64,000 nt of DNA from Fictibacillus terranigra (lineage in GTDB: Bacteria; Bacillota; Bacilli; Bacillales; Fictibacillaceae): contig NZ_JAUHLN010000004.1 in the NCBI RefSeq assembly GCF_030412265.1, positions 1-64,000 on the forward strand, read 5' to 3'. A program made the position numbers and the translations under genes. The notes under the pieces are model-generated. The model searched no databases, was not told the origin of the DNA, and worked only from the letters and a program-made list of their open reading frames with translations. Of the stretch, positions 30,259 to 32,388 are shown piece by piece. Each line of letters opens with the position of its first letter. Position 1 is the first letter of the stretch.

Positions 30259-30294
30259 AAAAACCCCTTACGGCTTCGGCCGTAAGGGGTTTTT
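30259..30294 (+). terminator. UUCG-loop terminator between rocA and the FHA regulator
   Basis: A perfect 16-bp stem (AAAAACCCCTTACGGC and its complement) closed by a TTCG tetraloop, with T-runs on both strands. It serves both convergent genes. Confidence 0.93.
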
Positions 30295-30994
30295 ACTTTT
30301 CTGCCGGGCTGCCTTGCGACACAGCCATCACAAATCCTTTACGGAGAACAGATTCGATGTGTAGATAAGGGGAGAGCTTTTTCCGTACACGGTAGATCAG
30401 GGAGTTTAGCTCATCAGAGCCAACATCGGGTACCCTGCCGTCGAAAAGCAAGTCTCTTTCGCTCCAGGCGTGCCGTTTGACTTCTTCTTTTGAAACGAAT
30501 TGCCCGAGGGAAGAATACAGCAGTTTAAAGCACTGAAACTCCTTATGTGAAAAGTGAATGTCTTTTTCACGCACTCGAACTTTTTGCAAAAGCTCATGGA
30601 TCTCAATGAAATCCTCGGCTGGAAGGGCGATAGGTTTTACCGGGTCCCAATCCATTGTTTCCTGGGAGTTCATCGTCATATACTTCATGGAGATCATGCC
30701 ATTGACCAGAGTAATCTGGTCACCATTGTGCAGAGCATATTCCTTTTGGGGAAGAAGGCGGATGCCATTTAGCCAGGTGCCATGCTTGCTTCCCAGATCA
30801 ATCAGCATGGGTGAGGGCTTATCACAGTCAATCACACAATGCCTTCTAGAGACGAGCGGAATATGAAAAGCAATTCCAGGAGCGGGCTCAGAGCCGATTC
30901 TTCCGATGAAAATTTTTCTTTTTAAAGGAACAAATTCATTATCATAGGGCTGTCCGCGTTCAATCAACAAGTGAAACTTCTCTAAGACGTCCAT
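30293..30994 (-). CDS. FHA domain / winged-helix transcriptional regulator
   Basis: A 233-residue cytosolic protein. Residues 15-105 form a forkhead-associated domain, which binds phosphothreonine peptides: KIFIGRIGS, VSRRHCVID, LIDLGSKHGTWLNG. Residues 130-228 resemble an OmpR/PhoB-type winged helix (REKDIHFSHKEFQCFKLLYS, VSKEEVKRHAWS, ELNSLIYRVRKKLSP, LRKGFVM). There is no receiver domain. GGTGAG lies before the ATG. It is divergent from the metallo-beta-lactamase at 31125 (130 bp apart). The domain reading is strong; control of that neighbour is an inference. Confidence 0.85.
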   Translation of the reverse strand: MDVLEKFHLLIERGQPYDNEFVPLKRKIFIGRIGSEPAPGIAFHIPLVSRRHCVIDCDKPSPMLIDLGSKHGTWLNGIRLLPQKEYALHNGDQITLVNGMISMKYMTMNSQETMDWDPVKPIALPAEDFIEIHELLQKVRVREKDIHFSHKEFQCFKLLYSSLGQFVSKEEVKRHAWSERDLLFDGRVPDVGSDELNSLIYRVRKKLSPYLHIESVLRKGFVMAVSQGSPAEK

Positions 30995-31056
30995 TGGCTC
31001 ACCTTCAATTATTTCAATATTCTTACTCTTGTTAGAGATTTGTTATTCCCGCTCCA

Positions 31057-31085
31057 TTGATGGGGTCAAAGAGAAGGAATATCAT
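31057..31085 (+). promoter_or_regulatory. Promoter of the metallo-beta-lactamase gene
   Basis: TTGATG (31057-31062), a 17-bp spacer and TATCAT (31080-31085). An inverted pair TGTTATT / AATAACA brackets the promoter and could be an operator. Confidence 0.6.
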
Positions 31086-31124
31086 CAATAACATAGCAGG
31101 AAAATTTAAGTAAAGGAAGGGATT

Positions 31125-31931
31125 ATGGTCATGAAAAAAAGAATCGTTTTAAATGCTGCTCTCAGCGGAATCATTGGTTTAGGTGTGGTAACCGCACCGT
31201 TAATCGTTAATGCGCAGGCCCAGAAGCCACACAGCCAAGCCGCTCATGTTCAAAAAACGTATTCGAACGAGGCAGGAACGGTTACACTCACCGAAATTAA
31301 GCCGCATGTTTGGGTACATACGTCGATCGGAGAGTTTAACGGGATGCCGGTTCCTTCGAACGGGCTGTTGTTGGAGACTTCCAAAGGCCTGCTGCTCGTC
31401 GATTCTTCATGGAATGATTCTATTACAACAGAACTGATGGATTTGATTTCGAAGCATTTGAAAAAACCGGTGAAAAACGCCATCATTACCCATTCCCATG
31501 CAGACCGAATCGGAGGGATTAAAACACTGAAGGAGCGGGGTGTCCATGTATATACGACTCCTCAAACCGCAAAGCTTGGAGCAGAAAACGGTTATGAGTC
31601 ACCAGACCGGCTTCTGAATCCTGTATTGACCCACTTAAAGTTCGGGAACGTTAAGGTGGAAACCTATTATCCGGGCAAAGGGCATACCGAAGATAATATT
31701 ACCGTTTATTTTCCACAGTACAAGCTGTTGGTTGGAGGCTGCCTGATCAAGTCACAGGAAGCAAAGGACCTCGGGAATTTAGAGGATGCTGATGTTGATG
31801 CTTGGCCGGTGTCCGTGCAAAGCGTGATCGACCGCTATCCTCAAGTGGATACAGTTGTTCCAGGGCATGGAAACCTGGGAGGAACAGAGCTTCTTTATCA
31901 CACCATAGAGCTGTTGGAGAACAACAAATAA
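31125..31931 (+). CDS. Subclass B1 metallo-beta-lactamase (BcII-like)
   Basis: A 268-residue exported zinc hydrolase expected to open beta-lactam rings, carbapenems included. A signal peptide (AALSGIIGLGVVTAPLIVNAQA) is followed by the MBL fold. All B1 zinc ligands are visible: HSHAD (two His and Asp), the His of GKGHTEDN, Cys of VGGCLIKS and His of VPGHGNLGG. The B1 Lys of CLIKS and the loop residues GMPVPSNGLLL also fit. ATG at 31125 or 31131, after AAGGAAGGG. Activity and spectrum are not shown by sequence. Confidence 0.93.
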   Translation: MVMKKRIVLNAALSGIIGLGVVTAPLIVNAQAQKPHSQAAHVQKTYSNEAGTVTLTEIKPHVWVHTSIGEFNGMPVPSNGLLLETSKGLLLVDSSWNDSITTELMDLISKHLKKPVKNAIITHSHADRIGGIKTLKERGVHVYTTPQTAKLGAENGYESPDRLLNPVLTHLKFGNVKVETYYPGKGHTEDNITVYFPQYKLLVGGCLIKSQEAKDLGNLEDADVDAWPVSVQSVIDRYPQVDTVVPGHGNLGGTELLYHTIELLENNK

Positions 31932-31945
31932 AGATAAACATAAAA

Positions 31946-31980
31946 AAAACTGGCGAGAACCAAGTTCCCGCCAGTTTTTT
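31946..31980 (+). terminator. Terminator between bla and doxX (bidirectional)
   Basis: AAAACTGGCGAGAAC pairs with GTTCCCGCCAGTTTT (one A-C mismatch) across CAA, with T-runs on both strands. Confidence 0.88.
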
Positions 31981-31986
31981 CTTTAT

Positions 31987-32388
31987 CTATTTTAACCATA
32001 ATGCGTCTAAAGAATAATCGCCTGCACCAGTGAAGGCCACTCCTAACGCTACAGCGATCAGGATCAAGTTGTATTCATAACCGCCTGATGTGGACCAGAA
32101 GCCGTTAGCTCCGTGCACTTTTACAATGGCAATAAGCATCGTAAAGATAATAGCTGCTGCTCCAAGCCAAGTCACAAGACCAGCTGCGAATAGCAGACCT
32201 CCGCCAAACTCAGCGAGTCCTGCAAGCAGTGCCATTGTGTAGCCAGGCTTAACGCCGATGGACTCGAGCCATCCGGCTGTTCCTTTCAAACCGTGGCCCC
32301 CAAACCAGCCAAACAGCTTTTGTGTACCGTGTGCCGCAAACGATAACCCGATTACGAGACGGATAATTAATAATCCTAAACTTAACAT
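31987..32388 (-). CDS. DoxX-family membrane protein
   Basis: A 133-residue protein with four predicted helices: [53 protein letters not shown] and [16 protein letters not shown]. The motif [12 protein letters not shown] after helix 1 is typical of DoxX proteins such as CatD/MhqP, which often respond to thiol or quinone stress. The promoter carries two matching inverted repeats, so it is probably repressed by a small regulator. No regulator gene is adjacent. Confidence 0.88.

Follow-up and report, generated by a model that had tools for sequence, protein, structure and literature searches.

The BlaR1-BlaI and MecR1-MecI systems control beta-lactamase and PBP2a genes of Gram-positive bacteria from an adjacent locus, with BlaR1 or MecR1 as the membrane penicilloyl sensor-protease and BlaI or MecI as the winged-helix repressor. 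Among FHA proteins, GarA/OdhI and Rv1827 are not known to have a DNA-binding domain, and their switch threonine lies N-terminal of the FHA domain. Beta-lactam resistance in the Bacillus cereus group is controlled by sigma-P/RsiP, according to excerpts of the literature. EmbR of Mycobacterium tuberculosis, a SARP-type protein phosphorylated by PknH, PknA and PknB, carries an OmpR-type DNA-binding domain and an FHA domain in one protein and acts on cell-envelope genes, as described in excerpts of PMC4601284; the same excerpts describe for GarA/OdhI and Rv1827 that an FHA domain can bind a phosphothreonine elsewhere in the same protein. EspM of mycobacteria, a protein of at least 363 aa with an N-terminal FHA domain and a C-terminal HTH domain, is encoded divergently from whiB6, binds the intergenic region between them and regulates whiB6 and esx-1 genes (PMC7002343, excerpts).

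In the window (the whole stretch of DNA analysed, 64,000 nucleotides of a Fictibacillus terranigra contig), a 233-aa protein with an FHA domain and an OmpR-type winged helix, here named FW, is encoded at 30293-30994 on the minus strand, as defined by its open reading frame, its Pfam domains and homologues in all six congeners searched. The FHA domain (30707-30901, minus strand; residues 32-96) was matched by Pfam with 62 bits, and the OmpR/PhoB-type winged-helix DNA-binding domain (30329-30565, minus strand; residues 144-222) was matched by Trans_reg_C with 30.1 bits against a cut-off of 26.2. No Pfam match to Response_reg (receiver) was found in FW, whose N-terminus is the FHA domain instead. 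The architecture that the earlier note had read from the letters, an N-terminal FHA domain joined to an OmpR-type winged helix without a receiver, was therefore borne out. ArlR, SaeR and other wHTH structures were matched when the FW profile was compared with solved structures, and the best 60 of the 83 matches each covered one stretch, either the FHA domain or the winged helix. An AlphaFold model built from two sequences (that of the window and that of locus L040) had a mean pLDDT of 37.8 and a pTM of 0.33, values too low for the model to be used. FW was the sole FHA match of the whole genome. FW is separated by a terminator-like hairpin (30259-30294) from an L-glutamate gamma-semialdehyde dehydrogenase gene that lies upstream.

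The closest described systems differ from FW in several respects. In EmbR the winged helix is N-terminal and is followed by a BTA domain and a C-terminal FHA domain, whereas in FW the FHA domain comes first, the wHTH follows and no BTA domain was matched; an invariant linker threonine and frequent beta-lactam resistance gene neighbours also set FW apart. EspM resembles FW in its domain order and in being divergent from a neighbouring gene, but differs in its size and target genes. Unlike BlaR1-BlaI and MecR1-MecI, FW is a single protein with an FHA input and a candidate tandem-repeat operator, and unlike sigma-P/RsiP, which works by proteolysis in an ECF sigma/anti-sigma pair, it is an FHA regulator. 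Compared with GarA/OdhI and Rv1827, the candidate threonine of FW is C-terminal of the FHA domain, in the linker. Among the open-licence papers searched, no description of an FHA-winged-helix regulator of beta-lactamases was found, an absence of little weight. Fictibacillus and metallo-beta-lactamase appeared together in one paper, a rhizosphere survey.

The phosphothreonine input was evaluated from the conservation of 80 FW proteins. The pocket of the FHA domain is formed by G31, R32, S49, R50, H52 and N76; G31, R32 and S49 were each conserved in 79 proteins, H52 in 78 and N76 in 76, these five corresponding to the GR, SxxH and N pocket residues of phosphothreonine-binding FHA domains. In the linker from the FHA domain to the winged helix (positions 98-149), Thr113 was the sole invariant column (80/80), while the other columns varied, and it was kept in all 34 proteins with less than 60% identity. 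It belongs to the motif T113-M-D-W (30647-30658, minus strand), a conserved candidate phosphothreonine site. The pattern T-x-[DE]-[FLYMW] was present in 79 of the 80 proteins, the exception being L041 with TLTF, and 75 had an acidic residue at position -1 or -2. When the single FW sequence was compared with solved structures, the FHA domain of RNF8 was the top match; with the profile it ranked ninth. A hydrophobic residue at pThr+3 is favoured by FHA domains of the RNF8, MDC1 and Chk2 kind; PASTA-type kinases of bacteria tend toward acidic residues before the phosphorylated site and hydrophobic residues after it. Based on this motif, the likeness to RNF8 and these preferences, we propose that the FHA domain reads Thr113 of its own or of a partner subunit, and the chance that Thr113 is the phosphorylation site is put at about even.

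The same genome carries adjacent genes for PrpC and for PrkC, the latter with a kinase domain and three PASTA repeats, and a PrkC homologue was found in all 35 genomes tested among the 124 FW genomes found. PrkC is to our knowledge near-universal in Bacilli, so its presence does not discriminate, and it is named as the kinase for FW only tentatively, at somewhat below an even chance. In B. subtilis, muropeptides are bound by the PASTA domains of PrkC (PMC6213207, excerpts).

The alternative that survives best keeps FW as the regulator of the beta-lactamase gene (bla) and gives its FHA domain another role, either reading another phosphoprotein or dimerising without phosphate, with Thr113 being structural; it partly overlaps the model preferred here and is rather unlikely. 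This reading draws on EspM, of which the N-terminal FHA half was needed for a second EMSA shift and for which FHA-mediated oligomerisation was discussed (PMC7002343, excerpts), but a purely structural threonine sits poorly with the joint conservation of the pocket residues (76-79 of 80), the linker threonine and the hydrophobic residue at +3.

The bla gene, divergent from FW and 130 bp away, spans 31125-31931 on the plus strand and encodes a complete BcII-like subclass B1 metallo-beta-lactamase of 268 aa, as determined from the open reading frame, the NCBIfam models and alignment to BcII. It passed the subclass B1 model NF033088 (276.8 bits, cut-off 200) and scored below the cut-off of the BcII family model NF033095 (307 bits, cut-off 500). 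In the BcII alignment the zinc ligands HxHxD, H, C and H were all intact. The complete B1 enzyme divergent from FW that had been noticed earlier was thus confirmed. On its 3' side there is a terminator-like hairpin (31942-31982), and a DoxX-family gene (31987-32388) converges on bla, with a homologue in the same place in five of six congener loci.

The class A beta-lactamase of the same genome lies elsewhere, on contig 12 (L193:3917-7453), divergent from BlaI and BlaR1. None of the three BlaI-type matches of the genome falls within the window, so no blaI/blaR1 was found beside the B1 gene; a contribution of the distant BlaR1/BlaI to its control may exist. With its own BlaR1-BlaI, the class A enzyme may be controlled separately, so that this genome would have two beta-lactamases that differ in their mode of regulation.

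In the 130 bp between the genes, the TGTTATT/AATAACA inverted pair that had been pointed out around the bla promoter is present as letters (31041-31047 and 31088-31094), but it was not sustained as an operator. Covariation between the two arms was absent among the five near congeners, and dinucleotide shuffles of the 130 bp produced one or more 7-bp inverted repeats in 47% of cases and two or more, two being the number observed, in 23%.

A direct repeat, TTGTTA-N5-TTGTTA with an 11-bp period (31029-31045, plus strand; half-sites at 31029-31034 and 31040-31045), is the candidate operator, corresponding to TRAYAA half-sites in the FW sense. In the window sequence alone it is mildly unusual (P 0.03), and its strength comes from recurrence in FW relatives. 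Among 43 non-redundant loci (less than 75% identical in FW), a TRAYAA pair at 11 bp was detected in 11, whereas 300 shuffles averaged 0.15 and reached 3 at most; other spacings from 5 to 44 gave 0-2 pairs each. The sequences of the window and of L041 are sufficient to define the half-site. Outside the genus, the exact 11-bp pair occurred in 8 of 40 non-redundant loci, always in the FW sense, against a mean of 0.14 and a maximum of 2 in 1000 shuffles of the same loci; the operator had been spotted by eye in several loci before this test, so that five of the eight had been looked at beforehand and three (L124, L132 and L135) had not. Apart from 11, spacings from 6 to 36 gave matches only at 22, 23, 28 and 36 (2, 1, 1 and 1 loci).

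The repeat was also in phase with the promoters. In the window, ATTG (31056-31059, plus strand) follows the repeat in 11-bp phase, as it does in the other operator loci, and overlaps the -35 of the predicted bla promoter (31057-31085, plus strand), which consists of -35 TTGATG (31057-31062), a 17-bp spacer and -10 TATCAT (31080-31085), a layout found in the seven loci of the genus. Of 22 loci compared, 17 had the exact operator, and ATTG followed it in 11-bp phase in all 17, at 10 bp in 15 loci and at 21 bp in L124 and L139, where the promoter was judged by eye. In the loci with a metallo-beta-lactamase (MBL) or glycerophosphodiester phosphodiesterase (GDPD) gene, ATTG overlapped the -35 of a predicted promoter with a spacer of 16-18 bp; the -10 hexamer was taken as the best of three spacers, so its match is biased upward. 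The match of bla -35/-10 to the consensus in the seven loci of the genus was modest, at 4 of 6 plus 4-5 of 6. On the minus strand, a possible FW promoter recognised by consensus match (CTAACA, 16 bp, AATAAT; 31008-31035) overlaps the repeats, by which we infer that FW regulates itself.

In 32 of the 43 non-redundant loci, including those linked to class D enzymes and penicillin-binding proteins (PBPs), no exact operator was detected; it therefore supports the MBL/GDPD branch only. Neither the half-site scan nor a generic direct-repeat scan gave a common operator for the class D- and PBP-linked loci, among which L137 alone had one-mismatch sites. TRAYAA-N5-TRAYAA was also tried as a guide to a genome-wide regulon and set aside: 27 matches in the own genome against 18 for the reversed-pattern control were too weak alone. 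Of the 27, one had the CAAT element, the bla-FW site.

Repression of bla by FW from the same operator, with phosphorylation releasing FW, would be a BlaI-like function and would differ from the preferred reading in direction only. The third element of the operator overlapping the bla -35, and the site overlapping the possible FW promoter, would fit such a repressor, but the two strong half-sites stand upstream of a modest -35/-10, which is the usual layout of PhoB/OmpR-type activators. Repression is accordingly regarded as unlikely, and activation of bla by FW is held to be the probable direction, with fair assurance.

The linkage of FW and bla in relatives, for which the earlier note had proposed a survey, was searched in 60 genomes, comprising the own genome, 6 congeners and 53 others. 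FW and a B1 gene were adjacent and divergent in all six congeners, that is, in seven of seven genomes of the genus, down to G001, where the identity was lowest (43% for FW and 52% for the enzyme) and the flanking genes differ. Among the 53 non-congeners, a B1 gene at E <= 1e-20 was detected only in G023, without FW; the cluster of G023 (L060:2174-8751) holds BlaI, BlaR1, a MecA-like PBP, B1 and a cell-wall hydrolase (Hydrolase_2), with no FW match. The arrangement recurred once in another, distant family, where FW of G681 (L163) is divergent from one of two B1 genes at 380 bp. In the order sample, B1 was present in 7 of 397 genomes, three of the own genus with FW and four without FW within about 10 kb; in the family of G681 it was present in 4 of 10 genomes searched, and the other three had no FW in the fetched flanks.

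A profile of 11 FW proteins (E <= 1e-20) gave matches in 53 of 397 genomes searched in the order and in 61 of 398 searched in the class; judged from these sequence matches, FW is a Bacilli-wide family. The family analysis covered 80 of the 133 places found. In 24 of the 80 loci, a gene for a beta-lactamase or for a MecA-like PBP was located within 400 bp of FW: B1 in 8, class D in 6, class A in 1 and a PBP alone in 9, among which that of L175 is a 194-aa fragment. Three of the class D loci have a PBP too. Five class D proteins were scanned, of which L129, L155 and L156 passed the 250-bit cut-off and L137 (211) and L154 (232) were below it; the class D gene of L154 is 1.4 kb from FW and hence outside the count of six, and for L157 and L177 the class was assigned from their similarity to the scanned proteins. 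The only PBP scanned, that of L148, contains MecA_N and resembles PBP4(5) (608 against a cut-off of 700) and PBP2a (429 against 750), in both cases below the cut-off.

These 24 loci cover eight family labels, and at least 11 changes of resistance-neighbour state were required on the FW tree, which drew long-branch warnings and had good support for no more than 45 of its 77 inner branches. Of the 41 beta-lactamase or PBP matches in the locus windows, 27 were within 400 bp of FW, including two (L150 and L177) where the called start of the PBP ORF overlaps the end of FW, and one of those beyond 400 bp was the BlaR1 of L149. In that locus (L149:6928-11019, G586), BlaR1, BlaI, a class A beta-lactamase and FW stand in a row on one strand, with FW 9 bp after the enzyme. 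The repeated resistance-gene neighbours of FW relatives suggest an uncharacterised way to switch beta-lactam resistance on.

In the other 56 loci there was no beta-lactamase or PBP gene within 400 bp. Ten of these had a GDPD gene within 400 bp, its identity having been checked by Pfam on L131 only, and in eight it was divergent from FW (L125, L127, L128, L130-L133 and L139), all eight with the 11-bp-spaced operator; these neighbours suggest a wider cell-envelope role for FW. In genus g4 (L048-L057), with genes named on L050, FW was upstream of secG in 10 loci, and enolase was on the opposite side in 7. FW also lies upstream of two small genes (about 96 and 112 aa) there; the small proteins were present in all 10 loci, and those of L050 had no Pfam match. 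A stand-alone receiver-domain protein of 140 aa (L058:5681-6103) is encoded 249 bp 3' of FW on the same strand in L058, and ORFs of repeated 'RAQ' units, a low-complexity repeat array, lie 3' of FW in G001 (L041:6672-7542).

That FW regulates itself only, with bla constitutive or otherwise controlled and the linkage an inherited synteny, is improbable: some FW genes that have an operator lack a beta-lactamase or PBP neighbour (L124 and L135, and with one mismatch L134, L136 and L138), and the MBL linkage comprises one genus and one other genome, but it holds at 43-52% identity with different flanks and recurs in G681, FW relatives adjoin three beta-lactamase classes and MecA-like PBPs, and the operator and the bla -35 are in phase.

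In the preferred reading, FW acts locally and is dedicated to regulating the transcription of the metallo-beta-lactamase gene and of its own gene. The winged helix of FW would bind the two head-to-tail half-sites and the weaker third, 11 bp apart and ending at the bla -35, and binding at the same site would account for autoregulation. The FHA domain and the one invariant linker threonine would stand in for an Asp-phosphorylated receiver: a Ser/Thr kinase, most likely PrkC on a cell-wall signal, would phosphorylate Thr113, and the FHA domain would bind phospho-Thr113 of the same or the partner subunit, changing dimerisation or domain docking and turning DNA binding on or, less likely, off. The binding, phosphorylation, kinase, inducer, direction and intra- or intermolecular FHA contact are what we infer. 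The earlier proposal that FW controls bla through an FHA/phosphothreonine route was strengthened by the linkage, the recurrent resistance neighbours, the direct repeat at the -35, the pocket with its threonine, and the encoded PrkC and PrpC, and lost the inverted repeat as its operator. From sequence evidence, FW is with good confidence a DNA-binding regulator of the divergent FW-bla pair, and control of the pair from the candidate operator with a phosphothreonine/FHA input is favoured with somewhat less assurance than activation.

Beside the known EmbR, EspM, BlaR1/BlaI and sigma-P, FW would stand as a regulator that links an FHA input, through an OmpR-type DNA-binding domain, to resistance genes. 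As far as we know, the PASTA kinase route from cell-wall damage to the transcription of resistance genes is poorly resolved, and the FW family offers a compact testable case, in which one protein combines a phosphothreonine reader with a lone invariant candidate phosphosite and has a defined candidate operator and resistance genes close by. It is conceivable, as a tentative proposal, that the FHA-winged-helix proteins form a class of OmpR-like regulators that is widespread in Bacilli and so far undescribed, in which a single protein is driven by a Ser/Thr kinase and a phosphothreonine at the invariant linker site, bound by the FHA domain, takes the place of the receiver Asp. Such regulators would have become connected repeatedly in evolution to three beta-lactamase classes and to MecA-like PBPs, and would add to BlaR1-BlaI and sigma-P a third path by which cell-wall damage leads to beta-lactam resistance. 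If so, kinase inhibitors might keep beta-lactamases and low-affinity PBPs from being induced in Bacilli, and inducible resistance loci that BlaR/BlaI searches miss could be recognised by their FHA-winged-helix genes.
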